Below are positions 1,215 to 57,673 of a stretch of 64,000 nt of DNA, piece by piece. The translations under genes were made by a program, and so were the position numbers. Every line of letters begins with the position of its first letter. Within the stretch, counting starts at the first letter, position 1. The notes under the pieces are model-generated. The model searched no databases. It worked only from the letters and a program-made list of their open reading frames with translations, and was not told the DNA's origin. The DNA comes from Spirochaetae bacterium HGW-Spirochaetae-1 (GTDB lineage Bacteria; Spirochaetota; UBA4802; UBA5550), in the NCBI GenBank assembly GCA_002839375.1, contig PGXY01000009.1, positions 1 through 64,000 of the forward strand, in the 5' to 3' direction.

Positions 1215-1739
1215 ATGGCTGTTGACAAAAAAAAACGTGATCGATTTTCAGAAATGTATATCGAATATTTTCCGCTGGTTATGAATGCATTGTTTACGAA
1301 AGTAGGAAATAAAGAAGACGCGAATGATATATGCCAGGAAGTATTTATTCTATTGTATGAAAAATTCGATGAAGTGTTAAATGTCAGAAAGTGGTTATTT
1401 GGCACATTGAGATATGTTACTTGCAGGTACTATGAACAGAAATCTAAAAACAGGGAACAGATTGACAGACTTTTCGATGATATTGCGCTGACATTTACCA
1501 ATGGATTTCGAGACACAAGAATCATAATTAACGAAGCAATTGAGAAGGCTGACATGAGTGAGGAAGAAAAACTCATTTTTGATTATATTGCTGTTTACAA
1601 CTACAGCTATTCGAATGTTGGAGATATTTTAGGCCTCTCAAAAAGACAAATTGGATACAAATTTATTAAAATAGTAAACGGTATACTGGAATATTTAAAG
1701 GTAAATCATGGTATAGAGAGCATTGAGGAGCTGTTATGA
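1215..1739 (+). CDS. ECF-type RNA polymerase sigma factor
   Basis: A 174-residue protein of ECF sigma-70 size that should direct RNA polymerase to a small regulon. Region 2 spans about residues 10-75 with the region-2.2-like stretch DANDICQEVFILLYEKF. Region 4 spans about 115-160, where YSNVGDILGLSKRQIGYK reads as the helix-turn-helix for the -35 element. The stop overlaps the start of the next gene (ATGA), so it is translationally coupled to a one-pass membrane protein, as sigma/anti-sigma pairs usually are. The sequence is divergent (Lys/Ile rich), so I cannot assign an ECF group. Confidence 0.8.
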   Translation: MAVDKKKRDRFSEMYIEYFPLVMNALFTKVGNKEDANDICQEVFILLYEKFDEVLNVRKWLFGTLRYVTCRYYEQKSKNREQIDRLFDDIALTFTNGFRDTRIIINEAIEKADMSEEEKLIFDYIAVYNYSYSNVGDILGLSKRQIGYKFIKIVNGILEYLKVNHGIESIEELL

Positions 1740-2455
1740 CCGTAATCGTCAATAACTTCCGCGAACTTCTCGATAAATATAAATTTGTCTATCCGGTACC
1801 TGAGGATATCCAGTCTTTCGCGGTATTGAACAGCAAAAAGGGACTCACAGTCATTCTGAAAAATGCCGGCGATTATAGCTTCATTTTCGGAAAAGTGCTG
1901 TTCATTCTATATGCAGCCAGGAAATTTAATATTAAGTTAACCATCGCCCGGTCTCAATTTTTACTCATTTTATCTTCAGCCGTGATGTTGGCTCTCACCA
2001 CAGCATCCTTCTATTTTCTATTTTCAAATTTCCCGTCAGCACCACATCTACCGGAAAAGACCATTGAAAATAATTCTATTATTGAAAAATATAAATTAAT
2101 CGCCCCGGATTCACAACAGAATCCGGCAATACCCGTTAATTATTTGATTGGAGTTGATTCTTTCACGGGAAGTGCCGATGCCGTGATTATTTCCGAAAAA
2201 ATTACTTCTGAACTGGAACAGATCCTGGGTAAAAGAAAAGTGCTCATACTCGGTAAAAAGGCCATCGATATAAATCCACCTAAAATATTAATGGGATCCG
2301 TGCAAAACCTGGGAGAAACCAAATACCTGACAATCAAGCTCATAAACAGCAGCACCTCCCGGATTGAATATTTAATTTCCGTTAAACTGAAATCAGAAGA
2401 GGAAACAGCGGCAGCCTGTGCAGATATAGCAAAAAATATTTCTGAAAAATTGTAA
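1736..2455 (+). CDS. One-pass membrane protein, putative anti-sigma partner
   Basis: The start codon overlaps the sigma-factor stop, so the two are probably co-regulated. About 70 N-terminal residues precede a single membrane helix at about residues 75-97 (FLLILSSAVMLALTTASFYF), leaving a C-terminal domain of about 140 residues outside the membrane. There is no zinc-finger anti-sigma motif in the N-terminal part. The C-terminal stretch from about residue 145 (VDSFTGSADA... ILMGSVQNLGETKYLTIKL) has the strand/helix pattern of CsgG/LpoB-like domains and resembles the next gene product (VVLGSVNKLAKFTITLKF). Anti-sigma function is inferred from position and topology, not from a recognised family. 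Confidence 0.6.
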   Translation: MTVIVNNFRELLDKYKFVYPVPEDIQSFAVLNSKKGLTVILKNAGDYSFIFGKVLFILYAARKFNIKLTIARSQFLLILSSAVMLALTTASFYFLFSNFPSAPHLPEKTIENNSIIEKYKLIAPDSQQNPAIPVNYLIGVDSFTGSADAVIISEKITSELEQILGKRKVLILGKKAIDINPPKILMGSVQNLGETKYLTIKLINSSTSRIEYLISVKLKSEEETAAACADIAKNISEKL

Positions 2456-2585
2456 ATATCTTTGTCACGATTTTAAGTAAAACCGGACTATATAGCAAAT
2501 TCTGAAATAAGACAGGTAGATAAAACCAATTATCATATATCTGTTAATAATTAATTGGACAATATAAAATAAAAAGGGAACCAAA

Positions 2586-3593
2586 ATGAAAAAAAGAAAA
2601 AAATTTATTACAATTTCATTTTTAATTATACAAACAGCTTTTCTTTTTATTGTTCATAGTGCTTTTGCACTAGAAAAGAAGAAAGTGGCAATTTTAAATT
2701 TTGTACCGAATAATGTTCCTGCCTCCTATGCCAATGTTGTCCGCGATATTACAGAAGTACGTCTATATAAAACAAATGCCTTTGACATACTTGAAAGAAA
2801 CCGTATCGAAACCATATTACGGGAACAGGGGTTTGAACAGACGGGCTGCACGGATACGGGCTGCGCGGTGGAACTGGGCAAAATGCTTTCTGTTGATATG
2901 GTCGTACTGGGGAGCGTGAATAAACTGGCAAAATTCACCATTACATTAAAATTTATTGGTGTAAGAGAGGGCAGCGTGATGTATGCCGATTCCGAAATTG
3001 CCGATGTGGAAGGGGTAATAGAGAGCTCGATCAATTTACTGGCTAACAGATCCGCTGAAGGGATTCTTAATCTAACACAGGGACCGGTAAAAGTGCCAGC
3101 CAAGCCCTCACCTCCAGAAAATAAAACTATGGCTGGTTATTATTTCAGGGGCATCATCCCGGGACTGGCGCAACATTATTCTGACAGGTACGTTAAAGCC
3201 GCATTTTTCGGTATCGGATTTCTTGCAGGCGGTGCTTATTTCGGATATTCCATATACAACTGGAGTGATAAAAGAAATATTTATGAGAACGAAGATTATG
3301 CTGGATTAACTGAAGCGGAGCAACAGGTCCTGCACGATAAAAATTATGATGCAACGCAGAAGGCCTTCAGACAGGCAAATATAGCGCTGGGGATATTTGC
3401 CGGGATATACCTGCTTAACTGGATAGATGTACTGTTTCTGTCAAAACCGGATTTCAGCAGCAATACACCGGGGATCCTTCATTACAATGACGGAGTTAAT
3501 AATATCTACTTCAGTTTTAATCTTAATGATAACAGTATCAATGAATACTATAATGAGATTAACTGTAATGTTAAAATAGGAATTTCATTTTAG
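2586..3593 (+). CDS. Secreted CsgG/LpoB-like protein with DUF5683-like tail
   Basis: A 335-residue exported protein. A signal peptide ends near residue 28 (HSAFA). Residues about 33-165 form a CsgG/LpoB (TolB-N) type domain: VAILNF start, DILERNRIETILREQG, then VDMVVLGSVNKL. The C-terminal half (about 185-285) starts with RGIIPGLAQHY and has two hydrophobic helices flanking a polar loop, like DUF5683 proteins of the envelope. Members of these families sit in the periplasm or on the outer membrane, and their substrates are unknown here. It lies 130 bp downstream of the sigma/membrane-protein pair and ahead of a large lipoprotein, suggesting a surface regulon. The start has a GGGAACC upstream. 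Confidence 0.7.
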   Translation: MKKRKKFITISFLIIQTAFLFIVHSAFALEKKKVAILNFVPNNVPASYANVVRDITEVRLYKTNAFDILERNRIETILREQGFEQTGCTDTGCAVELGKMLSVDMVVLGSVNKLAKFTITLKFIGVREGSVMYADSEIADVEGVIESSINLLANRSAEGILNLTQGPVKVPAKPSPPENKTMAGYYFRGIIPGLAQHYSDRYVKAAFFGIGFLAGGAYFGYSIYNWSDKRNIYENEDYAGLTEAEQQVLHDKNYDATQKAFRQANIALGIFAGIYLLNWIDVLFLSKPDFSSNTPGILHYNDGVNNIYFSFNLNDNSINEYYNEINCNVKIGISF

Positions 3594-3652: not shown

Positions 3653-5947
3653 ATGAATAAAAAACATGTTCGCATTGCAACACTGATTATTTTTTTGTTG
3701 TCATCTCTTATTCTATCATGCGGCGTGTGGGAAAATCCAGAGAGTAATTACCCCACTGAGAATCGTGTGAGTACACCACAATTCAGTTATGCTGGCGGCA
3801 TATACAACAGTGACATTAGTGTTGAAATTGGGTGTACAACGCCAGATGCACAGATTTACTATACAAAAAATGGAGAGGCTCCAACTATTTTTTCCTCGCT
3901 ATATAATACACCAGTATTGATATCAGGTAATGGCACTGAAATAACAATAAAAGCAATTGCAGTAAAGGACGGTATGGAAAACAGTAATATTGCCGAAGCA
4001 ACATATGAGATTGATATCAGCGATATTGATGTTACGTCCCCGAACACTTCTGCAACATGGTGGTGGAATAAAGAAAATGTAGAAGTAACCTGGGAGCATG
4101 GAGACCTGGACGGAAATGTCAGGCTGGATCTCTATAAAGGAGAGACTCTTGTTGACACGATTATTTCATCCACTACTAATGATGGGAGTTATACTGGGTA
4201 TAATGTTCCATCTGGTTTGAATGTTGGAGCCGATTATCGGGTCCGTGTTTATTATGATTCTGAACATTATGCCTTCAGTGAATACTTTACAATCACAAGT
4301 TATTTAATCAAGATCACCCTGCAGTCCGGGATTATTAATGGTTACATGATAAGCCCGTCAGACCCGGAGATTACTGTTGACGCGTGTTCACAAATAACCG
4401 GCAATTTGATTGTCAGGGTCATCAACAACATGCCGGCAGCCGCTATCGCGCCACTGGCAGCAACACCTACCTGGGGAAACCCCGAAAGCAGCTACTGGGC
4501 AATCAACAGTGATGTAAGTACCGGTGAGAATGACTATACGGTTCCCATAGACGTAACCGTGCCCTGTGAAAGCGGGACATATTATATTGTCGTCGCCATG
4601 GCAGGGACGTATAATGCTGATCAACTAATGTCAGGCACACATCCCGGTTGCACAGCAGACTGGACAAACGGCAATATCGTTGCACTGTTAGATGAAAGCA
4701 ATTTTGAGACGGCCATTGAGCAGGGATACATAAACTTCAGCTGGTACGATCCAGATGGACCGATTGCGGGCACGATGGCAATGACCGCCGTCAGGATAAT
4801 TGTTGAAGAAGCGGTAGATGGCACATATTCTTTCCGATGTGTCGATAGCGAAAAAGAAATCGCCTACAAAGAGATCAACTATGGTGATTTTACACTTGAG
4901 GTCGACTTTAAAATGGAAGAGTGCACATGGTCCGGTGGTATAGCCTTTGGCTTATGGAATCCTGATATAGGTAACAGCAGTAGAGCAACTTTTGGTGTAA
5001 GCAATGATGACGGCGGCCGGGTATTTATTTTATCAATAGATGGTGGTGGTTCTCAGAAAGCTTATTACAATTATTCATTAGATACATGGTACACAGCCCT
5101 GATGAGTTACGACTGGAGCGAGCAGTCATGCACATTGGTAATTAAAAATCGTTCAAGCGGAACAACTGTAGCAACGGCATCGATAACAGATGCTCCCATT
5201 CCTGCAGGGGTTTCAGGCCTGTTGATCGGTAACCCTGGTGGAGATGGCTATGGTACAGCTTCATGCGAGATTGATAATCTCAGTATGACAGAAAACGGCC
5301 AGGTCGTATACCAGGAAGATTTTTCACAGGATCCCGCATGGACTGTCACTGATCCTTCTGATTTATACAGAATAAATTCTTCCGAAACATACCATTTAAC
5401 GTGTGTTGAAAGCGAAGGTGAATATGTCTATGAAGACATCAACTACGGAAGTTTTACACTTGAAGCGGATATTAAAATCGACGCATGTACCTGGTCAGGA
5501 GGTGTACTTCTTGGTTTATGGAATCCTGACATAACTGATTCTGGCCGTTCAATATTAATTTTCAGTAATGCTGATGGAGGGAGGAATATAATGCTATCAA
5601 CGACTGATGGTGCTGAGACACAATATTTTGATTACACATACACAAACTGGTACAGATGCATACTTTCATATAATTATCAGGAGAGAACTACAAGTCTTGT
5701 AATACAAGACCGTTCAACAAGTACAATAGTAGCAACTTTTTCAATGGAAGATATATCCGCACCATATAAAATAACACAACTGATTCTTGGCGATCCAGGT
5801 GGCGATGGGTCCGGCATGTCGTCAGGCGAAATAGATAATATAATAATTACAGAAAACGGTCAGGTCGTATATGATGAAGATTTTTCACAGGATCCAGGGT
5901 GGACGGCAACGGATGTTACGGACCTTTTCTGGATGATTGCAGAGTAA
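3653..5947 (+). CDS. Large modular surface lipoprotein with tandem lectin-like repeats
   Basis: A 764-residue lipoprotein with lipobox LILSC (Cys23). Residues about 42-120 look like the chitobiase C-terminal (CHB_HEX_C) fold: PQFSYAGGIYNSDISVEIG then IYYTKNGEAPT. Residues about 128-215 resemble the Ser/Thr-rich Kre9/Knh-like module (ITVTSP-type start, WEHGDLDGNVRLDLYKG). Two tandem repeats of about 180 residues follow (about 391-570 and 579-757), each with a TWSGG...GLWNPDI core and ending TENGQVVY-x-EDFSQDP; these look like concanavalin-fold carbohydrate-binding modules. The stop falls about 20 residues into what reads as a third repeat start, so the array may be trimmed. No catalytic motif was recognised. 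Confidence 0.7.
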   Translation: MNKKHVRIATLIIFLLSSLILSCGVWENPESNYPTENRVSTPQFSYAGGIYNSDISVEIGCTTPDAQIYYTKNGEAPTIFSSLYNTPVLISGNGTEITIKAIAVKDGMENSNIAEATYEIDISDIDVTSPNTSATWWWNKENVEVTWEHGDLDGNVRLDLYKGETLVDTIISSTTNDGSYTGYNVPSGLNVGADYRVRVYYDSEHYAFSEYFTITSYLIKITLQSGIINGYMISPSDPEITVDACSQITGNLIVRVINNMPAAAIAPLAATPTWGNPESSYWAINSDVSTGENDYTVPIDVTVPCESGTYYIVVAMAGTYNADQLMSGTHPGCTADWTNGNIVALLDESNFETAIEQGYINFSWYDPDGPIAGTMAMTAVRIIVEEAVDGTYSFRCVDSEKEIAYKEINYGDFTLEVDFKMEECTWSGGIAFGLWNPDIGNSSRATFGVSNDDGGRVFILSIDGGGSQKAYYNYSLDTWYTALMSYDWSEQSCTLVIKNRSSGTTVATASITDAPIPAGVSGLLIGNPGGDGYGTASCEIDNLSMTENGQVVYQEDFSQDPAWTVTDPSDLYRINSSETYHLTCVESEGEYVYEDINYGSFTLEADIKIDACTWSGGVLLGLWNPDITDSGRSILIFSNADGGRNIMLSTTDGAETQYFDYTYTNWYRCILSYNYQERTTSLVIQDRSTSTIVATFSMEDISAPYKITQLILGDPGGDGSGMSSGEIDNIIITENGQVVYDEDFSQDPGWTATDVTDLFWMIAE

Positions 5948-6182: not shown

Positions 6183-6545
6183 TTATTGCTTATTCTCTTT
6201 CGGGTAATCCTGTATGATTCGTTCCATGAGTTTCAGCACCAGTTCGCAATCCTCAATACCGGCTGTTTTGAAAAACATCTCAATGAGTTCCCGGCGATAA
6301 TGGTGCGCCTCATCAAGGGACTTATCATGTTTTTCAGGAAACATTTCTCCCCTGCCCTGAATAAGCCAGTCAGCAGAACAGTCGAATTGTTGCAGCAGCA
6401 GCATAATAAAGGCAAAGGAAGGGCTCTGGGCCCCTGATTCGACCATTGCAATCATTGATTTTGATATATTGAGTTTTTTTGCAAGTTCGGCCTGGGTGAA
6501 ATTTAATTTTTTCCTTAATTCTTTAATACGGGTGCCTATTATCAT
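6183..6545 (-). CDS. XRE-family transcriptional regulator
   Basis: A 120-residue protein with an N-terminal Cro/CI helix-turn-helix (residues about 5-60): RIKELRKKLNFTQAELAKKL, then NISKSMIAMVESG as the recognition helix. The remaining 55 residues are helical and may dimerise. It is divergent from a second XRE gene at 6741 with the same plan (WLIQGRGEMF here, WLLRGQGPMI there), so the pair are probably paralogues that share the intervening AT-rich operators. The target is unknown. Auto-regulation is likely from the layout. Confidence 0.8.
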   Translation of the reverse strand: MIIGTRIKELRKKLNFTQAELAKKLNISKSMIAMVESGAQSPSFAFIMLLLQQFDCSADWLIQGRGEMFPEKHDKSLDEAHHYRRELIEMFFKTAGIEDCELVLKLMERIIQDYPKENKQ

Positions 6546-6740: not shown

Positions 6741-7082
6741 ATGCCCGGAAAACGGATCAGAGAACTGAGGGAATTGTTGAATATAACTAAGCATGAGTTT
6801 TCACACAAAACCGGTTTACCCTTTACATGTTTAAAAGCGGTTGAGTCCGGAGCAGCACATCCGGACCTGGAATACATACAATTGATCCTTGAAAAATACC
6901 CAGTCTCTGCTCAATGGCTGTTGCGCGGTCAAGGACCCATGATTTTCCCTGAGGATACAACAGAGCTGTTAAAAGATCCGCGGATGGCCAGGATGCTGCT
7001 TTTTTTAGATACAGCTGATGATAGGGATATTGACTTCGTTCTTTCCGTTATGGATCGCTTTACTAAAGGAAAGGCGGGGTAA
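6741..7082 (+). CDS. XRE-family transcriptional regulator (paralogue)
   Basis: A 113-residue helix-turn-helix protein with RIRELRELLNITKHEFSHKT followed by PFTCLKAVESGAAHPDLEYI at residues about 5-50. The recognition helix departs from the usual S/R-rich XRE pattern. A helical tail follows. It has a clear GAGGGA ribosome site and is divergent from the XRE gene at 6183-6545. The downstream Cys-rich gene starts 28 bp after its stop and may be in the same transcript. Confidence 0.75.
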   Translation: MPGKRIRELRELLNITKHEFSHKTGLPFTCLKAVESGAAHPDLEYIQLILEKYPVSAQWLLRGQGPMIFPEDTTELLKDPRMARMLLFLDTADDRDIDFVLSVMDRFTKGKAG

Positions 7083-11480: not shown

Positions 11481-11882
11481 ATGGATAAGAAAGAACTGAT
11501 AAACTATTGGAAAGAGACCTCTGATCGCGATTATGGGACTATGAGGAATCTTTACAAGAGCGGGGATTATCACTGGAGTCTGTTCATGGGCCATCTTGTG
11601 ATTGAGAAGCTTCTTAAGGCATTATATGTGAAGAATAATGATGAGGGCGCGATTCCTCCAAGAACGCATGATCTCGCGTTTCTTGCCGAGCGCTCCGGCG
11701 TGACTACCAGTGAAGAAATGAAAGATGCCCTGGATATCGTGACTACATTTAATATCAATGCCAGGTATCCTGATTACCGGCAGGATTTTTATCGCAAGTG
11801 TTCAAAAGATTATACCGGCGCATCTATCGAAAAAATAGAGGAGATTCGTAAATGGCTGATATCGCTGTTGGAGAAAATATAA
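11481..11882 (+). CDS. HEPN-domain protein of a HEPN/MNT pair
   Basis: A 133-residue all-helical HEPN protein. DYHWSLFMGHLVIEKLLKAL is the typical second helix, RTHDLAFLAERSG the middle segment and FNINARYPDYRQDFY the C-terminal segment. In HepT toxins a R-X4-6-H RNase motif lies near this last segment; no His follows the Arg here, so RNase activity is doubtful. The gene overlaps the downstream nucleotidyltransferase gene by 31 bp, the usual coupling of HEPN/MNT toxin-antitoxin modules. Confidence 0.8.
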   Translation: MDKKELINYWKETSDRDYGTMRNLYKSGDYHWSLFMGHLVIEKLLKALYVKNNDEGAIPPRTHDLAFLAERSGVTTSEEMKDALDIVTTFNINARYPDYRQDFYRKCSKDYTGASIEKIEEIRKWLISLLEKI

Positions 11883-12172
11883 AGGACATTCTTTGCAGGT
11901 ACGCGAGCGTTCTTGAAGCACAGTATAGCCTGCGCGGCGTGTATCTCTTCGGTTCGAGGGCCCGCGGAAACGAAGACAAAGACAGCGATATTGACGTTGC
12001 TGTCGTCGCTGATGATTTTACGGGGGACCCTGTCGATGACAGGCTTGCTCTCATGAGATTGAGGCGGGGCATTGATCTTCGGATCGAGCCACTCCCGTTT
12101 CATTCTCGTGATTTCGTACTCTCCCATCCCATGGCAAAAGAGGTTATGGAGACGGGAATCAGGATACGTTGA
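11852..12172 (+). CDS. MNT-type minimal nucleotidyltransferase
   Basis: A 106-residue protein with the polymerase-beta-like nucleotidyltransferase signature GS-X10-DxD (Gly34-Ser35, Asp46, Asp48) in YLFGSRARGNEDKDSDIDVA. In MntA/HepT systems the nucleotidyltransferase neutralises the HEPN toxin by adding AMP to it. The catalytic residues are intact. The start lies inside the upstream HEPN gene. The following 276 bp to the next gene hold no clear feature; a minus-strand frame there (down from 12286) is discussed among rejected items. Confidence 0.8.
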   Translation: MADIAVGENIKDILCRYASVLEAQYSLRGVYLFGSRARGNEDKDSDIDVAVVADDFTGDPVDDRLALMRLRRGIDLRIEPLPFHSRDFVLSHPMAKEVMETGIRIR

Positions 12173-48037: not shown

Positions 48038-48061
48038 ATTTTAGTGGAATATCAGGAATAT

Positions 48062-48964
48062 ATGAAAATTAAAATAGGTACGCGGGGAAGCGAGTTGGCC
48101 ATGTGGCAGGCCCGCTTTGTGGCCGGTCTCATCGGTCCGGAACGCACCGAGATCATAGTAATAAAAACCCAGGGTGATGCAATCCAGAACGTCTCTTTTG
48201 ACAAGATGGAAGGCAAGGGTTTCTTCACCAAGGAAATAGAAGAGGCCCTGCTGGATAAGAGGATAGACCTGGCGGTCCATTCCCTGAAAGACCTGCCTAC
48301 GGAAAATCCCGCGGGACTGGTCATCGCGGCAATTCCGGAACGCGAGGACCCCGCGGACCGGCTGCTCATGAGTCCCGAAGCCTGGGATGACGATATGCCG
48401 CTGCATCTGAAAGAGAATGCCGTGATCGGTACCAGTTCCATGCGCAGGATGGCCCAGCTGAAATTTCTCCGCAGCGATCTCCTCATTGAACCTCTCCGGG
48501 GAAATGTGAACACGAGGATACGGAAACTGCGTGAAGGGCGCTATGACGGCATCGTGCTGGCGGCGGCGGGCATAAAGCGGATAGACCTGGCAGTGGATGA
48601 TTTTAAATCGATTGTCCTGGGCACGGATATATTCCTGCCGGCGCCGGGACAGGGGGCTCTGGGCCTTCAGATCCGCGAAGATGACGATGATACGCTTCGC
48701 GCCGTGGCTCCCCTGAATCACGGCGGAACCGAACGGCTTGTTTCGGCTGAGCGTGCCTTTCTCCGTCATTTCGGCGGCGGCTGCCATATCCCCCTGGGCG
48801 CCTTTGCCGTGGACGAGGCCGGTGCGATACGGCTTCATGGGGTTGTGGCCTCCACGGACGGCAGCAAATCCCTCAGGGAGGAGATAACCGATACGGACCC
48901 GGAAAGCGCCGGATCAAGGCTCGCCCGGCTATTAAAGGATAAAGGAGCGGACAGGCTGATATGA
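48062..48964 (+). CDS. hemC: Hydroxymethylbilane synthase
   Basis: Makes hydroxymethylbilane from four porphobilinogen. Start at ATG 48062 (AGGAAT upstream; six upstream in-frame codons disfavoured). 300 residues: KIGTRGSELAMWQA, Asp77 in HSLKDLPT and Cys241 (HFGGGCHIPLGAFA) for the dipyrromethane cofactor. Its stop overlaps the cobA-hemD start (ATGA), first gene of the haem train. Confidence 0.97.
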   Translation: MKIKIGTRGSELAMWQARFVAGLIGPERTEIIVIKTQGDAIQNVSFDKMEGKGFFTKEIEEALLDKRIDLAVHSLKDLPTENPAGLVIAAIPEREDPADRLLMSPEAWDDDMPLHLKENAVIGTSSMRRMAQLKFLRSDLLIEPLRGNVNTRIRKLREGRYDGIVLAAAGIKRIDLAVDDFKSIVLGTDIFLPAPGQGALGLQIREDDDDTLRAVAPLNHGGTERLVSAERAFLRHFGGGCHIPLGAFAVDEAGAIRLHGVVASTDGSKSLREEITDTDPESAGSRLARLLKDKGADRLI

Positions 48965-50457
48965 AAACCGGTTTTGTGTATCTCGTGGGTGCCGGTCCCG
49001 GTGATCCGGGGCTTATAACCGTGAAGGCCCTGGAGGCCCTGGAGGAAGCGGACTGCATCATCTATGACTATCTTGCCAACGCGTCGCTTCTGCGCAGCTA
49101 TACCTGTGAAAAAATTTACGTGGGCAAGCAGGGCGGCGATCATACCCTGCCCCAGGAAGAGATAAACGATCTCCTGGTACGCAAGGCCAGGGAGGGAAAG
49201 ATCATTGTGCGCCTCAAGGGCGGCGATCCCTATATATTCGGCCGTGGCGGCGAGGAGGCCGAGGACCTGGTGGATGCCGGTATTCCCTTCTGCGTTGTTC
49301 CGGGCATATCGTCTTTTTATTCAGCGCCGGCCTATGCGGGCATTCCCCTGACGCACCGCGATTACGCCAATGCCTTTGAGGTTATCACGGGACACCGGCG
49401 GAGCGACGCCTCCGACGAAGAGGACGTCAATTTCCCCGATTATGATCCATGCCGTTCCTACGCGTTCCTCATGGGCATGAAGAACCTTGCCCACATAGCG
49501 GCTTCGCTGATAAAAGAAAAAAATTTTCCGGCCGATACGCCTGTTGCGATCATATCCTGGGGAACCAGGCCGGAACAGCAGGTAGTCACGGGAACTCTGA
49601 CCACCATTGCCGGGGAAGTGACCAGGTCCGGTGTGCGGCCGCCCGCCATCATCGTCGTGGGCCGCGTGGTGCTCCTCCGGGAAAAACTCCGGTGGTTTGA
49701 CACGCTGCCCCTTTTCGGCAAAAAGATCGTGGTGACCCGTACCCGGCAGCAGGCCTCGAAACTGACGAAAAAGCTGGCGTCTCTTGGCGCCCGTGTCATC
49801 GAGCTGCCCGCCCTGGAGATACGGGAAATGGAAGACGCGGGGCCCCTTCATGGGGCCATTGAGAAGCTGGGTAACTATAACTGGATTGTTTTCACGTCCC
49901 AGAATGCCGTGAATATATTTTTCAAACATCTGTTTGCCATGGGCAGGGACACCCGTTCCCTGGCGGGCTGTTACATAGCCGTCATCGGGAAGGCCACGGG
50001 CGACGAACTGCTGCGGTACGGACTGAAGCCCGACGTGGTGCCGGAAGAATTCGTGGCCGAGAGCCTCCTGGCCTCCCTGGAAAAGACCGGTATCACCGAC
50101 GGCACTATCCTGCTGCCCTGCTCCGAAGACGCCCGGGATACCCTGTACGAGGGAATGAAAAAGCTGGGAGCCCGCGTTGACCGCATCCATATCTATCGTC
50201 CGGAAAAACCGGAACCGGTACCGGTTGAGGAAATGGAAGAAGTGAGGAATGCCCATATGATCACCTTCGCCAGCTCGTCAACGGTTCGGCATTTTTTCGA
50301 TATGGTTCCCGAAACGAAAGCTGTTGCGGCCAGCATCGGCCCTGTGACGTCGTCGACGCTGCGTGAACTGGGCCATGCGCCCGTTGTGGAAGCCGGGGAG
50401 TATACCATCGACGGCCTGGTGCAGGCCATCACCGATTATTACCGGGAAAAGAATTAA
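48961..50457 (+). CDS. cobA-hemD: Fused uroporphyrinogen-III methyltransferase / uroporphyrinogen-III synthase
   Basis: 498 residues. The N-terminal part (about 1-243) is the SAM-dependent CobA: VYLVGAGPGDPGLITVKALE, RLKGGDPYIFGRGGEEAE, PGISSFYSAPAYAGIPLTHR. It converts uroporphyrinogen III to precorrin-2. The C-terminal part (about 252-498) is HemD: VVTRTRQQASKLTKKLASLG, FTSQNAVNIFFKHL, SIGPVTSSTLRELG. The fusion channels hydroxymethylbilane to precorrin-2, the siroheme branch, consistent with the Ahb genes downstream. Confidence 0.93.
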   Translation: MKTGFVYLVGAGPGDPGLITVKALEALEEADCIIYDYLANASLLRSYTCEKIYVGKQGGDHTLPQEEINDLLVRKAREGKIIVRLKGGDPYIFGRGGEEAEDLVDAGIPFCVVPGISSFYSAPAYAGIPLTHRDYANAFEVITGHRRSDASDEEDVNFPDYDPCRSYAFLMGMKNLAHIAASLIKEKNFPADTPVAIISWGTRPEQQVVTGTLTTIAGEVTRSGVRPPAIIVVGRVVLLREKLRWFDTLPLFGKKIVVTRTRQQASKLTKKLASLGARVIELPALEIREMEDAGPLHGAIEKLGNYNWIVFTSQNAVNIFFKHLFAMGRDTRSLAGCYIAVIGKATGDELLRYGLKPDVVPEEFVAESLLASLEKTGITDGTILLPCSEDARDTLYEGMKKLGARVDRIHIYRPEKPEPVPVEEMEEVRNAHMITFASSSTVRHFFDMVPETKAVAASIGPVTSSTLRELGHAPVVEAGEYTIDGLVQAITDYYREKN

Positions 50458-50477
50458 GAAGAAGGGGAGGATAGACG

Positions 50478-51446
50478 ATGCCAACCTACAGGCCGCGACG
50501 ACTCAGAACAACGAAAACCATACGGGACCTCGTTTCCGAAACGGTTGTCATGCCTTCGAAACTCATCATGCCACATTTTGTCCGCGAGGGAAAAGATATA
50601 CGAGAGGCAATTACTTCCATGCCCGGCATCGACCGTGTTTCCCTCGACAATCTCATAAAAGACATTGAATCGGATCTTAACCTGGGAATCACTATGGTTC
50701 TTCTTTTCGGTATTCCCGATGAGAAGGATGAAAAGGGGACCGGGGCCTGGGATGAATCGGGAATCGTCCAGCAGGCGGTCCGGGAAATAAAAAAACGCTT
50801 CCCCGGAATCTGCGTTATCACCGACGTGTGTCTCTGTGAATACACCAGTCACGGCCATTGCGGTATCGTGAGCGACAGCCGGGTCCTCAATGATCCCACC
50901 CTGGAGCTTCTGGCCAGGACGGCCCTTTCCCATGCCGCTGCCGGGGCAGACATGGTGGCCCCGTCGGACATGATGGACGGTAGGGTCGGGGCCATCCGCG
51001 ATGCACTGGACGGCGGTGGTTTTGACGAAACGGCAATCATGGCCTATTCGGCCAAGTACGCCTCGGCTTTTTACGGTCCCTTCAGGGACGCCGCGGGGAG
51101 CGCCCCGCAGTTCGGCGACCGCCAGAGCTACCAGATGGACTGCCGCAACGCCCGGGAGGCCGAGCGCGAGGTAATCCTGGATCTCGACGAGGGAGCCGAT
51201 ATCGTCATGGTGAAGCCGGCGCTGTCCTATCTTGACATAATATACCGGGTAAAGGAGATTTCTCCCGTGCCGGTGTGCGCCTATAACGTGAGCGGCGAAT
51301 ACTCCATGGTCAAGGCGGCTGCGCGTCTCGGCCTGGGTGATGAGCGGCGGCTGACGTTGGAAATACTGACGTCCATATTCAGGGCCGGGGCCGACATGGT
51401 GATTTCATATCACACCAGGGATCTGCTGAAGAATAAGTGGCTGTAG
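50478..51446 (+). CDS. hemB: Delta-aminolevulinic acid dehydratase (porphobilinogen synthase)
   Basis: 322 residues. Cys118, Cys120 and Cys128 in DVCLCEYTSHGHCG form the zinc-type active site. The Schiff-base region is MAYSAKYASAFYGPFRDAAG, with VKPALSYLDIIYRVKE later. Condenses two aminolevulinates. 20 bp after cobA-hemD, ribosome site GGGGAGGA. Confidence 0.96.
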   Translation: MPTYRPRRLRTTKTIRDLVSETVVMPSKLIMPHFVREGKDIREAITSMPGIDRVSLDNLIKDIESDLNLGITMVLLFGIPDEKDEKGTGAWDESGIVQQAVREIKKRFPGICVITDVCLCEYTSHGHCGIVSDSRVLNDPTLELLARTALSHAAAGADMVAPSDMMDGRVGAIRDALDGGGFDETAIMAYSAKYASAFYGPFRDAAGSAPQFGDRQSYQMDCRNAREAEREVILDLDEGADIVMVKPALSYLDIIYRVKEISPVPVCAYNVSGEYSMVKAAARLGLGDERRLTLEILTSIFRAGADMVISYHTRDLLKNKWL

Positions 51447-51454
51447 ATGACACA

Positions 51455-51521
51455 GGCCCCCTAAATCTTCCGGAGGGGGACTTGTAAAAGGTATATTTTA
51501 AACCCCTTACAGGGGTGGCGG
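51455..51521. repeat. Dispersed palindromic repeat (copy 2) inside haem genes
   Basis: Reverse-complement match to 30046-30117: GGCCCCCTAAATCTTCC ... GAGGGGGACTT ... TTTTAAACCCC ... GGGGTGGCGG. Lies between hemB and hemL, the only wide gap within the haem gene train, and could fold in the mRNA. Confidence 0.75.
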
Positions 51522-51628
51522 GTTTCTATTTATATATCCTATGAATCACTTTGCCGGGGTCTTGCTGAATTAAGTTTATCCCTGCATCGGGGGCCGGGGA
51601 GAATGAACTTTAAACTGGAGTTGATTTT

Positions 51629-52921
51629 ATGAATACAAAAAATTCCGCTTTGCTGTATGCCGAGGCTTTGAAGCTCCTCCCCGGCGGGGTCGATTCGCCG
51701 GTGCGCGCCTTCCGCTCCGTGGGAGGCGACCCGCTCTTCATGAAGAGGGGAGTCGGGTCCCGTATATTCGATGAAGATAACAATGAATACATAGATTACT
51801 GTATGTCATGGGGTCCGCTGATCCTGGGCCATGCCGATCCCGATGTAGTCAAGGCCGTTCAGATAACGGCCGAGAGTGGAACCAGTTTCGGCACACCCCA
51901 TAAGTATGAGGTGGAGCTGGCAAAACTGGTGACCGGCTCTTTTCCGAGCATAAAAAAAATCCGTTTTGTCAACTCCGGCACCGAAGCCGTCATGAGTGCC
52001 ATACGCCTGGCCCGGGGTTTTACGGGGAGGGACAAATTCATCAAGTTCGACGGATGCTATCATGGTCATGCCGACCATCTGCTCGTGGCGGCCGGGTCAG
52101 GCCTGGCTACCCTGGGCACGCCCGATTCCGCCGGGGTGACGGCCGCCAATGCCGGGGACACCATCGTACTCCCCTTCAATGACCTGGATGCTCTCGCGGC
52201 ATGCCTGTCAGAAAATGATTCTCTTGTTGCCGCTGTCATCATGGAACCCGTTCCCTGCAATTATGGCCTCATCATGCCGTCGGAAAAATATCTCCAGGGT
52301 GTCCGGTCTCTCTGTACCCGGCACAACGTGGTACTGATTTTCGATGAGGTTATTACGGGCTACCGGCTCTCCGACGGTGGCGCTCAGAAATATTACGGCA
52401 TTGAGGCGGACCTGACCACGCTGGGCAAGATAATCGGCGGCGGCCTTCCCGTGGGGGCTTACGGCGGCAGGGAGGATATCATGAAAATGGTGGCTCCCGA
52501 TGGTCCTGTGTACCAGGCAGGCACCCTGTCAGGCAACCCCCTGGCCATGGCCGCGGGGATTGCCACCCTGAAAAAGCTGGTCAACGGTTCTCCCTATGTC
52601 ATGCTTCAGCATAAGGCCGATTATTTCCGCGATATACTGAAGCCTTCCCTGGCGAAATACGAGGGGCGTTTCCTGTTTCAGCAGATAGGATCGGTTTTTT
52701 CATTCTGCTTCACGGACAAAAAGACTATCATCTCCGTGGATGATATAAAAAAGGGCGATATGAAACTCTTTGCCAGGTTTCATCATGAGATGCTGTCAAA
52801 GGGAGTGTATCTCGCACCATCGGGATATGAGGTGGGATTCATTTCCCTGGCTCACAGCGACGAAGATCTGATACGAACGGCCGACGCCGTGAGTCATTCA
52901 CTGGCAGCGGTCCTGGGATGA
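51629..52921 (+). CDS. hemL: Glutamate-1-semialdehyde 2,1-aminomutase
   Basis: 430 residues. PLP-dependent class III aminotransferase: LPGGVDSPVRAFRSVGGDP, CYHGHADHLLVAAGSG, IFDEVITGYRLSDGG and Lys267 in TLGKIIGGGLPVGAYGG. Makes aminolevulinate from glutamate semialdehyde. GGAG ribosome site. Confidence 0.97.
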   Translation: MNTKNSALLYAEALKLLPGGVDSPVRAFRSVGGDPLFMKRGVGSRIFDEDNNEYIDYCMSWGPLILGHADPDVVKAVQITAESGTSFGTPHKYEVELAKLVTGSFPSIKKIRFVNSGTEAVMSAIRLARGFTGRDKFIKFDGCYHGHADHLLVAAGSGLATLGTPDSAGVTAANAGDTIVLPFNDLDALAACLSENDSLVAAVIMEPVPCNYGLIMPSEKYLQGVRSLCTRHNVVLIFDEVITGYRLSDGGAQKYYGIEADLTTLGKIIGGGLPVGAYGGREDIMKMVAPDGPVYQAGTLSGNPLAMAAGIATLKKLVNGSPYVMLQHKADYFRDILKPSLAKYEGRFLFQQIGSVFSFCFTDKKTIISVDDIKKGDMKLFARFHHEMLSKGVYLAPSGYEVGFISLAHSDEDLIRTADAVSHSLAAVLG

Positions 52922-53018
52922 TCGTGCCGGGGCCGGTTTCGTAAGGGCGATAGAATAGTTATTTACAACGCATCGCGTACCATGTTATTATGAAGGCAAA
53001 ACGAACAGGATAAATGAG

Positions 53019-54326
53019 ATGGGGCATAAAACAGCTGATATAGCGGTAATAGGTTTCAGTCATAAAACGGCGCCCGTGGAAAAACGGGAGTGTTTCTCGA
53101 TTCACTATGACATTCTGCCGGAACTCTACGGGAAAATGAGGGAACATGCCATTGATGAGGCCGTATATATGGCCACATGCAACCGCGTTGAGACCTACAT
53201 AGCATCTCGTTCCGTGAAGAAAGACATTGAAAAGATTACCGCGATGTATGAAGAGATATCCGGCATGCCGTATGATGAATTCAAGGATCACCTCTATGTG
53301 AAAACTTCCCGGGAGGCCGTTCATCACCTTCTTTCGGTCATATCCTCCCTGGACAGCATGGTGCTGGGCGAGAATGAGATTGTGGGCCAGGTGAAGGACG
53401 CCTTTACCCATGCCGTGTATAACAAGGCTGTGGGTCCCGTCCTGAACAAGCTCTTTCATCAGGCCTTCCGCACCGCGAAGCAGGTGAAAACCGAAACCGA
53501 TATCTCGCGCAATCCCCTGTCTGTGGCCTATATCGCTGCTGATCTGGCACGGAAACTTTTTCCCGATTTTCAGAATCGAAAAGCGCTGCTTGTGGGCGCC
53601 GGTGAAATGGGAGAGCTTATACTGAAATATTTTACCAAGTACGATATAGGCCACGTCACTATCGCCAACCGCTCGATCCATAATTCTGAGAGGATTGCCG
53701 CAGAAATCAATCGTGAAGCCGAGATTGTGCTTCTGGAGGATATTACCGAAACGGCAGCCGAAGTCGATATCGTGATTACATCGGTTACGGCGCCCCATTA
53801 CATGGTAACCGCCGAGATGGCCAGGGAAATCATGAAGATAAGGAAAAACCGCCCGTTGTTTCTTATCGATATAGCTGTCCCCAGGAATATTGATCCCGAA
53901 GTGGCCGACGTGGAGGGTGTTCATCTCTACAATATAGACAGCCTCCAGGACATCGCCGATGATAATCTGAAGAGCAGGATCAAGGAGGTCGACCTTGCCC
54001 GGGAGTTTATCGAGACTAACGTAAAAGATTTTTTTGAGTGGTTCCAGGAACTGTCCGTGGCTCCCACGATCGTCTCCATACAGAACACCTTTGATGAAAT
54101 CCGCTCGAAGGAGCTGGGTCGCTACAGGAAGAAAAAATTGAAACATCTCAGTGATGATGATTTCGCACTGATAGAGGATTTGACCAGACAGATTATGACG
54201 AAGACGCTTCATAATCCCATTATGAATCTGAAGCGCTATCACCGCGCTTCCGGTGATGATCATTCTGAAAAAGAACACCTGCGCCTTCAGACCAAGTTTA
54301 TAGAGGAGTTATTCAGCAAAAAATGA
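53019..54326 (+). CDS. hemA: Glutamyl-tRNA reductase
   Basis: 435 residues. GFSHKTAPVEKRE start and active-site Cys54 in MATCNRVETY, then LVGAGEMGELILKYF NADPH-binding motif and IDIAVPRNIDPEV. First committed step from glutamyl-tRNA. Overlaps the ahbD start by four bases. Confidence 0.96.
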   Translation: MGHKTADIAVIGFSHKTAPVEKRECFSIHYDILPELYGKMREHAIDEAVYMATCNRVETYIASRSVKKDIEKITAMYEEISGMPYDEFKDHLYVKTSREAVHHLLSVISSLDSMVLGENEIVGQVKDAFTHAVYNKAVGPVLNKLFHQAFRTAKQVKTETDISRNPLSVAYIAADLARKLFPDFQNRKALLVGAGEMGELILKYFTKYDIGHVTIANRSIHNSERIAAEINREAEIVLLEDITETAAEVDIVITSVTAPHYMVTAEMAREIMKIRKNRPLFLIDIAVPRNIDPEVADVEGVHLYNIDSLQDIADDNLKSRIKEVDLAREFIETNVKDFFEWFQELSVAPTIVSIQNTFDEIRSKELGRYRKKKLKHLSDDDFALIEDLTRQIMTKTLHNPIMNLKRYHRASGDDHSEKEHLRLQTKFIEELFSKK

Positions 54327-55417
54327 AAATGCCCGATAAACCCAGGCTCATATTCTGGGAACTGACAAAGCAATGCAATTTGGCATGTAAACACTGCCGC
54401 GCCGAGGCTGAAAACATCGATTACGGCGGAGAGCTTGAGCTGGACCAGGTAAAAAAAATAATCGATGACATAGCGGATTTTTCCAGTCCCATACTGGTCC
54501 TCACCGGTGGCGAGCCCCTGTATCGGCATGATGTTTTTGATATTGCCCGGTACGCCGGTGAAAAAAAACTCCGCGTGGCCCTGGCAACCAATGGCACGCT
54601 TATTGACACCGATTGCGCCGCTAAAATAAGGGATGCCGGTATCGCCCGCGTCAGCATTTCCATTGACGGAAGCACGGCCGCCTCACACGACGATTTTCGC
54701 GGTATCCCCGGTTCATTTGACGGCGCCGTGCGCGGAGCCCGTCTTCTCAGGGAACAGGGGGTGGAATTTCAGTTCAACACCACCGTGACAAAAAGAAATG
54801 TTCATGAGATCGAGGATATTCTGAAATTCGCCGTTGGAGAAGGTGCCGCGGCCCTGCATATATTCATGCTGGTCCCCGTGGGCTGCGGTGTTGAAATCGC
54901 CGAAACCGACATGATATCCAGCGAAAAATACGAGGAAGTTCTGAACTGGTTTTACGACCGCTCGAAAGACACGAAGATGGAACTCAAGGCAACGTGCGCT
55001 CCTCATTATTATCGTGTTATACGCCAGCGGGCCCGGGAAGAAGGCCGCACCCTGTCCTTTGAGCATGACGGCATGGCTGCCATGACCAGGGGATGTCTGG
55101 CCGGAAGCGGCGTATGCTTCATTTCACACCGCGGCGACGTTCAGCCCTGCGGATACCTGCCACTGGTGGCGGGGAATGTCCTGGCTGATGATTTTAAAAA
55201 AATATGGGAGGAGTCGGAGCTCTTCCTGTCGCTGCGCGACGCTGACCGTCTCGAAGGTAAATGCGGCGAATGCGGATACCGCATGGTATGCGGGGGCTGC
55301 CGGGCCAGGGCGCACTATGCCACGGGCCGTTACCTGGACGAAGAGCCGTACTGCCTGTATGAGCCGAAGGGGAAAGAACAATGCCGGAATTCAGCAGCAG
55401 CGAAGCAAAAATCCTGA
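54323..55417 (+). CDS. ahbD: Radical SAM haem synthase (AhbD-like)
   Basis: 364 residues. Cluster motif C18-x3-C22-x2-C25 (TKQCNLACKHC), LTGGEPLYRHDVF, then a C-terminal SPASM-like Cys set (GECGYRMVCGGCRARAHYAT). In the siroheme-dependent route AhbD converts iron-coproporphyrin III to haem b by decarboxylating two propionates. Assignment versus AhbC rests on order, size and Cys layout. Its end overlaps the ahbAB start by 37 bp. Confidence 0.8.
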   Translation: MKMPDKPRLIFWELTKQCNLACKHCRAEAENIDYGGELELDQVKKIIDDIADFSSPILVLTGGEPLYRHDVFDIARYAGEKKLRVALATNGTLIDTDCAAKIRDAGIARVSISIDGSTAASHDDFRGIPGSFDGAVRGARLLREQGVEFQFNTTVTKRNVHEIEDILKFAVGEGAAALHIFMLVPVGCGVEIAETDMISSEKYEEVLNWFYDRSKDTKMELKATCAPHYYRVIRQRAREEGRTLSFEHDGMAAMTRGCLAGSGVCFISHRGDVQPCGYLPLVAGNVLADDFKKIWEESELFLSLRDADRLEGKCGECGYRMVCGGCRARAHYATGRYLDEEPYCLYEPKGKEQCRNSAAAKQKS

Positions 55418-56418
55418 ACCTGGTCCAGAGGGACTTTCCTCTTACGGAGAAGCCTTTTGAAGAGATGGGTTCCGCAGCAGGGGTCTCCGGCGGGGAAGTT
55501 CTGCGGCTCGTGAAGGACCTGAAAGAGCGCAATATAATACGTAATATAGCCGGTATTTTCAACGGCGAGAGTCTGGGCTATCACCTGAGCCTGGTGGCTC
55601 TCAGGGTACCGAAGGAGAAGACCGACGAGGCGGCCTCGGTCATCAACAGCCATCCCGGCGTGAGTCATAATTATCTTCGCGATAATGATTTTAATTTGTG
55701 GTTCACCCTGGCCGAGGAGGATGAGGATAGCCTGCGGGAGAGCGCAGGAACCATCGCGAAAAAATGCGGTGCCGAAGATTTTCTCATGCTCCGCAATGAA
55801 AAGCTTTTCAAGATCGGATTCATGCTTGCCATCGGGGAGGATGATACGGGATCTGAGCAGACGGGTTCCGGAGTCAGAACCGAACCATTCAGGGGAACCC
55901 TGAGCCGGGAGGACCGCGAGGCGGTGTATCTGCTCCAGTCGGACCTGCCGCTCGTAGACCGGCCCTTCGATGCGCTTGCGGAAAAGAGCGATCGTTTCAG
56001 CGGGAGTTCGCTTATTGAGACGGGCAGGCGGCTTCTGGAGATGGGCGTCATGAGGCGATACGCGGCCGTACTGCGGCACAAAAAGGCCGGGTTTACCCAT
56101 AATGCCATGACGGCGTGGAAACTCGGGAACGATGTCAATGCCGATGAAAGGATACGGCCTTTCATGGAAGAGCGGTCCGTGACCCATCTGTACCTGCGTA
56201 CGGTGGTTCCCGGCCGTTGGGAATTCCCTCTCTTTGCCATGGTTCATGCAAAAAGCAGCGAAGAACTGGAGTCGGTTCTGGAAAAGCTCGCAGGGGATTC
56301 GGGGCTGACCGAAAGGCTTGTGCTCAGGTCGGTTCATGAATATAAAAAAAAGAAGGTGATATATTTTTCACCGGAATTTCAGGAATGGAAAAGGTTGTAT
56401 TATGATAGATATAGGTAA
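55381..56418 (+). CDS. ahbAB: Fused siroheme decarboxylase (AhbA-AhbB)
   Basis: 345 residues with two Lrp/AsnC-like halves, each of about 160 residues. First half: ILNLVQRDFPLTEKPFEEMG, NIIRNIAGIFNGESLGYHLS, GVSHNYLRDNDFNLWFTL. Second half: LLQSDLPLVDRPFDALAEKS, MRRYAAVLRHKKAGFTHNAM, VTHLYLRTVVPGRWEFPLFA. AhbA and AhbB are separate proteins in Desulfovibrio and form a heterodimer that removes siroheme C12/C18 acetate carboxyls. NirDL of haem d1 synthesis has a similar fusion. The HTH is not for DNA binding in this family. Confidence 0.85.
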   Translation: MPEFSSSEAKILNLVQRDFPLTEKPFEEMGSAAGVSGGEVLRLVKDLKERNIIRNIAGIFNGESLGYHLSLVALRVPKEKTDEAASVINSHPGVSHNYLRDNDFNLWFTLAEEDEDSLRESAGTIAKKCGAEDFLMLRNEKLFKIGFMLAIGEDDTGSEQTGSGVRTEPFRGTLSREDREAVYLLQSDLPLVDRPFDALAEKSDRFSGSSLIETGRRLLEMGVMRRYAAVLRHKKAGFTHNAMTAWKLGNDVNADERIRPFMEERSVTHLYLRTVVPGRWEFPLFAMVHAKSSEELESVLEKLAGDSGLTERLVLRSVHEYKKKKVIYFSPEFQEWKRLYYDRYR

Positions 56419-57673
56419 AATATACTGCGGTGGAAGTTCAACGGGAGACGGACTCAGGTACGGTACCAAGGCTACCGCCGATTCGCACGGAAACGCCCCG
56501 CACCGCGTGGCCACCCTGGCCAGTGACAGGCGTCCCATTGTCGTGTGGAGCACCACGCGTACCTGCAACCTCAGGTGCGTTCACTGCTATACCGATTCTG
56601 ATAACCAGAAATACGCCGGTGAACTGACTACCGAGGAGGGACTGCAGCTCATTGATGAACTGGCTGATTTTTCCATCCCGTCACTTCTTTTTTCCGGCGG
56701 GGAGCCCCTGATGCGGCATGACCTCTTCAAGCTTATCGAATACGCAGCCAAAAAAAATGTGCGTCCCGTCATTTCAACCAACGGGACCCTCATCGACAAG
56801 GACACGGCCAGAGACATCAAGAATGCCGGCGTTGTATACGTGGGGATAAGCCTGGACGGCATGGAAGAGGTAAACGACAGCTTCCGCGGCGTAGAAGGGG
56901 CCTATAAAAAGGCCATGAAGGGATTTGAAAACTGCCGTAACGCCGATCAGCGCGTGGGCCTGCGGCTCACCCTGACAAAGCGGAATTATCAGGACCTGCA
57001 CCGCATTTTTGATTTTATCGAGACCGAGGGGATAAACCGGGCCTGTTTCTATCACCTGGTCTATTCAGGCAGGGGCAGCAGCATGTTCAATGACGACCTG
57101 ACCTACCGGGAGTCCCGTCATGCCATGGATATCATCATTGAACGCACCGATGATTATTTTTCACGGGGCCTTGATATCAACATTCTGACCGTTGACAATC
57201 ATACCGACGGTGTATATCTTTACCTGAAGCTCCTGGAGAAAGACCCTGTCAGGGCGGAGGAAATATACCGCCTGCTGTCCTGGAACGGCGGCGGCGCCAA
57301 TTCCACGGGTGTGGGGATCGGGAATATCGATTTTTTCGGCAATGTGCATCCAGACCAGTTCTGGCAGGATTATACCCTGGGCAATATCAGGGAACGCCGT
57401 TTTGGCGAGATATGGCTCGACGAGAGTGAGCCGCTCATGAAGGGGCTGAAGAACAAAGCGCAGTATATCAAGGGGCGATGCCGTCTCTGTAAATACCGGG
57501 AGCTCTGTACCGGCGCCATGCGGGTGCGGGCTTTCCGCACCTATGATGATCCCTGGGCCCCGGACCCTCAGTGCTATCTTACCGATGAGGAGATCGGTCT
57601 TGACGCCGAGAAAAAGGAGGAGCTCCGGAGAAAAGGAGAATTCTTCCCACAGCCCGAGGAGCTGCTGAAATAA
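56402..57673 (+). CDS. ahbC: Radical SAM 12,18-didecarboxysiroheme deacetylase (AhbC/NirJ-like)
   Basis: 423 residues. The AhbC-style leader IDIGKIYCGGSS is followed by C55-x3-C59-x2-C62 (TTRTCNLRCVHC), SGGEPLMRHDLFKLIEYAAK and a SPASM end (CRLCKYRELCTGAMRVRAF ... PQC). Removes the two acetyl side chains of didecarboxysiroheme to iron-coproporphyrin III. NirJ, its haem d1 homologue, is excluded by the presence of AhbD-type partner but not by sequence alone. Overlaps neighbours by 17 bp and one base. Confidence 0.82.
   Translation: MIDIGKIYCGGSSTGDGLRYGTKATADSHGNAPHRVATLASDRRPIVVWSTTRTCNLRCVHCYTDSDNQKYAGELTTEEGLQLIDELADFSIPSLLFSGGEPLMRHDLFKLIEYAAKKNVRPVISTNGTLIDKDTARDIKNAGVVYVGISLDGMEEVNDSFRGVEGAYKKAMKGFENCRNADQRVGLRLTLTKRNYQDLHRIFDFIETEGINRACFYHLVYSGRGSSMFNDDLTYRESRHAMDIIIERTDDYFSRGLDINILTVDNHTDGVYLYLKLLEKDPVRAEEIYRLLSWNGGGANSTGVGIGNIDFFGNVHPDQFWQDYTLGNIRERRFGEIWLDESEPLMKGLKNKAQYIKGRCRLCKYRELCTGAMRVRAFRTYDDPWAPDPQCYLTDEEIGLDAEKKEELRRKGEFFPQPEELLK

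Follow-up and report, generated by a model that had tools for sequence, protein, structure and literature searches.

The window analyzed here is a stretch of 64,000 nucleotides from the genome of Spirochaetae bacterium HGW-Spirochaetae-1 (contig PGXY01000009.1, positions 1 to 64,000). Close to its start three genes follow each other on the forward strand, which encode an ECF-type sigma factor of 174 amino acids (1215–1739), a membrane protein of 239 amino acids that is a putative anti-sigma factor (1736–2455) and an exported protein of 335 amino acids (2586–3593). The sigma factor passes the TIGR02937 sigma70-ECF model (45.7 bits, cut-off 42.9) and contains the Pfam domain Sigma70_r2 (2.2e-7, 31 bits, cut-off 24); its Pfam match to Sigma70_r4 is weak (0.1). 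With regions 2 and 4 only and a score above the cut-off of the ECF model, the product of 1215–1739 belongs to the ECF sigma factors (group 4).

Sigma gene and regulator gene are translationally coupled. That the gene of the 239-residue protein overlaps the sigma gene had already been noted in an earlier, sequence-only reading of this DNA, and the overlap was found to consist of the four bases ATGA (1736–1739), with the regulator start lying inside the sigma stop codon. The codons for the C-terminal -EELL of the sigma factor (GAGGAGCTGTTATGA, 1725–1739, forward strand) are at the same time the Shine-Dalgarno sequence and the start codon of the regulator gene. An identical 4-base overlap is present in 52 of 57 sigma-regulator pairs of the family described below, and 41 of these 52 exhibit a GAGG, GGAG or AGGA core just 5′ of the regulator start. 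The tail L/I-E-D/E-L-L is conserved across the sigma proteins of the family, and as its DNA reads GAGGAnCTnTTATGA or similar it also holds the ribosome binding site and the start of the regulator gene. Part of its conservation at the protein level may therefore reflect translational coupling. No intrinsic terminator was seen between positions 900 and 3700. A search for a common ECF promoter 5′ of 54 sigma genes yielded only A/T runs and no −35/−10 pair; self-regulation of the sigma factor is thus not supported by any promoter motif common to the sigma genes.

The membrane protein itself matches no family in Pfam or NCBIfam. Family alignments and column statistics delimit a constant inner domain (residues 1–74, 1736–1957), the putative sigma-binding part, which is followed by a transmembrane helix (residues 75–97, 1958–2026; family-averaged hydropathy peak 2.05) and an outer domain of the TolB-N/PelC/CsgG fold (residues 135–239, 2138–2452), the latter assigned from an AlphaFold2 model, structure matches and hhalign. 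Conserved motifs of the inner domain are LL.K.rf..PVP and (K/R)(K/R).GI. It is modeled as three low-confidence helices (pLDDT 50–69 for residues 1–70) and gave no meaningful match to a known anti-sigma profile, such as a zinc-finger or class I anti-sigma domain, or to a solved structure (Pfam, 26 members; PDB sequences), which agrees with the previous statement that the protein lacks a known anti-sigma motif (no anti-sigma family matched in Pfam or NCBIfam). The single membrane helix of the sequence-only reading was recovered as well: averaged over 58 sequences, residues 75–97 are strongly hydrophobic with hardly any charge and form the only main helix by hydropathy, with basic residues at 62–74 on the inner side. 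A two-helix topology with residues 48–61 as the first helix is disfavored, as this weaker hydrophobic stretch is short and precedes an almost invariant basic pair at residues 62–63. The pattern speaks for a protein that crosses the membrane once, its N-terminus lying inside, although the stretch 48–61 leaves some doubt.

The third gene starts 130 bases behind the regulator gene. Its product has an N-terminal signal peptide (about 2586–2669) which ends in ...HSAFA-LEKKK and contains no lipobox (no cysteine). A CsgG-fold domain (2670–3065) follows, which is supported by model matches and by a Pfam CsgG (PF03783) match of 33.9 bits (cut-off 20.8) that covers only profile positions 42–101 of 210. 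For LpoB, both profiles remained below their cut-offs (PF13036, 12.2 bits vs. 22.3; TIGR02722, 11.6 vs. 110.55). The tail of the window protein is too short for a barrel and instead contains a DUF5683 membrane segment (3153–3428; 26.9 bits, cut-off 26.7), many partner relatives having C-terminal regions other than DUF5683. As 16 of 23 complete partners end in F, W or Y (vs. 5 of 39 other downstream genes), and as the partner at one related locus (L127; loci are given as L numbers) has an OMP_b-brl match below the cut-off, it is possible that many partners are small barrels in the outer membrane whose CsgG-fold domain lies in the periplasm.

In relatives, conservation of the sigma unit does not extend to the lipoprotein genes that begin at 3653. 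The first of them (3653–5947) encodes a lipoprotein of 764 amino acids with CHB_HEX_C_1, Fn3_assoc and Kre9 domains and two repeated C-terminal regions. Further along the window, two divergent and related XRE-type regulators are encoded at 6183–6545 (reverse strand) and 6741–7082 (forward strand), which have similar C-terminal tails (SADWLIQGRGEMFPE and SAQWLLRGQGPMIFPE). An overlapping gene pair at 11481–12172 resembles a typical toxin-antitoxin arrangement, one product apparently being a HEPN protein and the other an MNT nucleotidyltransferase. A tetrapyrrole cluster at 48044–57673, comprising hemC, a cobA/hemD fusion, hemB, hemL, hemA, two radical-SAM genes and a NirD/L-like regulator, appears to encode the alternative (Ahb) heme route.

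When 46 genomes of a single uncultured Spirochaetota order were searched with a profile built on the inner 100 residues, 58 copies of the membrane protein turned up in 26 of them, whereas 347 other genomes sampled from the phylum yielded none; uncultured Spirochaetota in the set include RBG_16_49_21, HGW-Spirochaetae-5 and UBA5550. An ECF sigma gene lies directly 5′ of 57 of the 58 copies, the exception starting at a contig edge. Five copies, including that of the window, are present in the genome under study, all in the order sigma factor, membrane protein, CsgG-fold protein. As this arrangement recurs in four more paralogous loci and in many relatives, it is far beyond chance. The membrane proteins would constitute a sizeable and hitherto undescribed family of spirochaete sigma regulators, which is new to Pfam and NCBIfam.

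Throughout the 58 copies the inner part is constant and the outer part variable. The latter is CsgG-like in 29 copies, consists of a FecR domain with an Sm-like C-terminal segment in 13 (one being cut by a contig end), is Sm-like alone in 10 and is absent or of low complexity in 6. FecR (PF04773) was confirmed by Pfam in the sister copies L103, L114 and L120. "Sm-like" is our own label for the motif LYNGR...GAIISRG..Y.V.T..G...IP...IK, for which no Pfam family scored above its cut-off. In three copies without an outer domain (L078, L079, L092), a low-complexity linker leads to the conserved C-terminal peptide (V/L)SD(V/I)P(T/S)L, which might serve for docking or be recognized by a protease. 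The position of 57 of 58 copies behind an ECF sigma gene, the mostly coupled translation and the sister copies with the FecR domain that is found in known sigma regulators strongly support, from genomics, the anti-sigma role that had been proposed for the membrane protein. Alternatively, it could act in the inner membrane as a factor that helps to assemble a CsgG/PelC-like complex of the envelope; it would then be co-transcribed with the sigma factor that switches on the operon and would not inhibit it. This would fit an inner domain without a known anti-sigma match and an outer domain sharing its fold with the ring components PelC, CsgG and FlgT. However, the sigma gene is still accompanied by the inner domain in 29 loci that have neither a CsgG domain nor a CsgG-fold neighbor, and some copies have a FecR ectodomain and some no outer domain at all, which makes an assembly factor improbable.

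The sequence-only reading had further claimed that the outer part of the membrane protein resembles the next exported protein and is CsgG/LpoB-like, and had named a lack of structural similarity as the outcome that would speak against this. A BLASTP comparison of the two window domains gave no match, so that a similar string spotted by eye proves nothing on its own. Yet hhalign, run with profiles of 29 outer domains and 24 partner domains, aligned both with a probability of 98.7% (E = 2.7e-16, 119 columns), whereas six controls among outer domain, partner domain, FecR part, sigma factors and inner domain all remained below 2%. An HMM built from outer domains only finds the exported partners (window partner E = 6e-6, best 9e-14), and an HMM built from partners only finds the membrane proteins (window copy E = 4e-5, best elsewhere 6e-9). 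For most of the outer domain the AlphaFold2 model has a pLDDT of about 95, and the closest matches of the modeled domain among solved structures are the TolB N-terminal domain (VIA Z 12.0), PelC (11.7), FlgT (11.3), CsgG (10.3) and the periplasmic domain of CadC (10.2, 3ly7). The model of the partner domain independently matches LpoB, TolB, PelC, GNA1162 and CsgG; TolB-N, PelC, CsgG and LpoB are matched by the models of both domains. Structural similarity was thus found, and the CsgG/LpoB assignment proved right at the level of the fold. The outer domain is a smaller version, which lacks the segment bearing the GC.D..CA motif of the partner. Mean scores were 103 between outer domains, 59 between an outer domain and its cognate partner and 55 between an outer domain and non-cognate partners, and the own neighbor had a mean rank of 9 of 23. 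The outer domains form an old group of their own, and these values do not support a recent origin by copying of the cognate partner.

Regulators and neighbors strictly share the CsgG fold. A CsgG-fold neighbor is present at 28 of the 29 CsgG-type loci and at none of the 29 others (Fisher p 1e-15), for which the sequence covered reached about 1.5 kb upstream and at most 6 kb downstream, less at contig ends. The partner lies directly downstream in 24 loci and directly upstream of the sigma gene in four (L074, L086, L104, L107); at the 29th locus (L082) the contig starts inside the upstream gene, the C-terminus of which resembles the four upstream partners by eye. As genomes of this order contain 0–21 CsgG genes each, accidental adjacency is unlikely. 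This co-occurrence of like domains supports the former proposal that the exported protein is a related ligand or partner of the membrane protein.

FecR- and Sm-type loci obey this mirror rule, i.e., the same fold in regulator and neighbor, only partly. A FecR-domain lipoprotein adjoins 7 of 13 FecR-type loci and none of 45 others (p 6e-6), being encoded divergently upstream in L108–L111 and downstream in L114, L117 and L120; FecR genes about 4 kb away at L071 and L102 were left out of this count. No like neighbor was found for the FecR-type loci L103, L118, L119 and L121 or at most Sm-type loci. An Sm-like segment occurs in both the regulator and a neighbor at L108, L109, L111–L114, L117 and L120; small or exported Sm-like proteins follow L108, L111, L112, L113, L114 and L117, and by eye also L099 and L101. 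L118 and L121 are exceptions to the rule with a likely metallo-beta-lactamase-fold hydrolase nearby downstream, which is neither FecR- nor Sm-like.

As the relatives share ancestry, the types were mapped on a tree of sigma factor and inner domain. The CsgG-type label changes seven times, at least four of these changes being on strongly supported branches, and the neighbor type changes together with the label in practically all pairings. An independent-pairs test comprised only four strictly supported pairs, with which significance is out of reach (p 0.125). An exchange of the outer part tends to be accompanied by a change of the neighbor, which suggests that the state of the envelope is sensed by like-with-like pairing across the membrane. 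That the resemblance stems from a local gene duplication or from chance and has no functional meaning appears extremely improbable: the genes are adjacent and CsgG-fold genes occur commonly in this order, but the outer domain is not closest to its own neighbor, and the pairing, with its clear-cut adjacency, persists through repeated exchanges.

Partial correlations of pairwise distances, each corrected for the other two proteins, were calculated for 23 CsgG-type loci and amounted to 0.47 for sigma factor and inner domain, 0.44 for outer domain and partner (as high in 1 of 2000 permutations) and −0.02 for inner domain and partner. This pattern is what a relay from the sigma factor through the inner and outer domains to the partner would leave, although linked inheritance of the outer domain and its neighbor could leave a similar mark. 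At another site in the same genome (L205:1991–2443, about C4:453 kb) a protein of 150 amino acids is encoded, apparently exported, which comprises hardly more than the outer-domain fold (outer-domain HMM 1.4e-26) and directly precedes a CsgG-fold gene; neither a sigma factor nor an inner domain was found in the stretch examined. This pair is possibly a soluble version of the regulator-partner pairing.

Taken together, we infer that the membrane protein binds and inhibits the sigma factor, that both outer domains are located in the periplasm and touch each other like with like, and that a signal reaches the regulon of the sigma factor in this way. It appears probable that the three genes form a cell-surface-signaling unit of this kind. 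The inner domain would hold the ECF sigma factor at the inner membrane, while the outer TolB-N/PelC/CsgG-like domain would contact the domain of the same fold in the exported neighbor. The state of the partner, that is, its amount, its assembly into a ring or its attachment to the outer envelope, would be sensed and relayed by the single membrane helix, and would decide whether the sigma factor is free. A rather unlikely alternative accepts the membrane protein as an anti-sigma factor and regards the CsgG-fold protein as a regulated product only, the two folds being alike since both bind a common third component, such as a ring-forming protein, a lipid or a polysaccharide, and not each other. 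TolB-N/PelC/CsgG domains do commonly bind other parts of the envelope, and an old family of outer domains that was not copied from the respective neighbor would suit such a component. One component becomes less simple, however, with the co-occurrence reaching a second, unrelated fold (FecR) and partly the Sm-like one, and the outer-partner correlation is about as strong as that between sigma factor and inner domain. For the family as a whole, sensing by direct like-with-like contact leads to a more tentative generalization, which we regard as possible but somewhat short of probable: the fold of the ectodomain equals that of the envelope partner (CsgG-like, FecR or Sm-like), sensing would rely on mixed assemblies that like domains form across the membrane, and acquisition of a matching domain would place an exported protein under the control of the sigma factor. 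If true, like-with-like contact of the STN type, as in PupR/PupB, would not be peculiar to TonB receptors and could be reused with other folds. It would also offer a sequence-only rule for the signal of an orphan anti-sigma factor, namely the neighbor of the same fold.

The closest parallels are FecI/FecR/FecA and PupI/PupR/PupB, in which an ECF sigma gene is likewise paired with a membrane regulator that has one helix. The periplasmic region of PupR ends in an STN subdomain that is structurally homologous to the signaling domain of PupB, to which it binds (PMC7186176); there, too, the fold of the regulator ectodomain is that of the signaling domain of the envelope partner. The window protein, encoded directly behind an ECF sigma gene and with a single helix, shows two features of FecR/PupR-type regulators. 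In contrast to these, its ectodomain is TolB-N/PelC/CsgG-like, its inner domain gave no match to a known family, and sister copies swap ectodomains. FecA and PupB are TonB-dependent receptors, whereas the next gene in the window encodes the small CsgG-fold/DUF5683 protein of 335 amino acids. As neither this receptor type nor, according to Pfam, the FecR domain (PF04773) in the regulator ectodomain is present in the window copy, the unit is not a member of the FecR/FecA systems.

Within the spirochetes, Leptospira LIC_12757/LIC_12756 is a comparable ECF sigma factor with a membrane FecR-like regulator, which acts as anti-sigma factor and positive regulator (PMC12655853). No CsgG-like ectodomain has been described for it, and the window family, in contrast, comes from an order of uncultured spirochaetes. 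A literature search for links of CsgG to anti-sigma factors, or for spirochaete CsgG systems, yielded nothing relevant in the journals covered. Both outer domains share the fold of CsgG, PelC, LpoB and the TolB N-terminal domain, none of which is, to our knowledge, the ectodomain of a sigma regulator; CsgG moreover has a lipobox, unlike the window partner. CadC differs in that its inner domain binds DNA and no sigma factor is involved, but it is likewise a one-helix membrane transcription regulator, and its outer subdomain has the same fold as that of the window protein (VIA Z 10.2, 3ly7).
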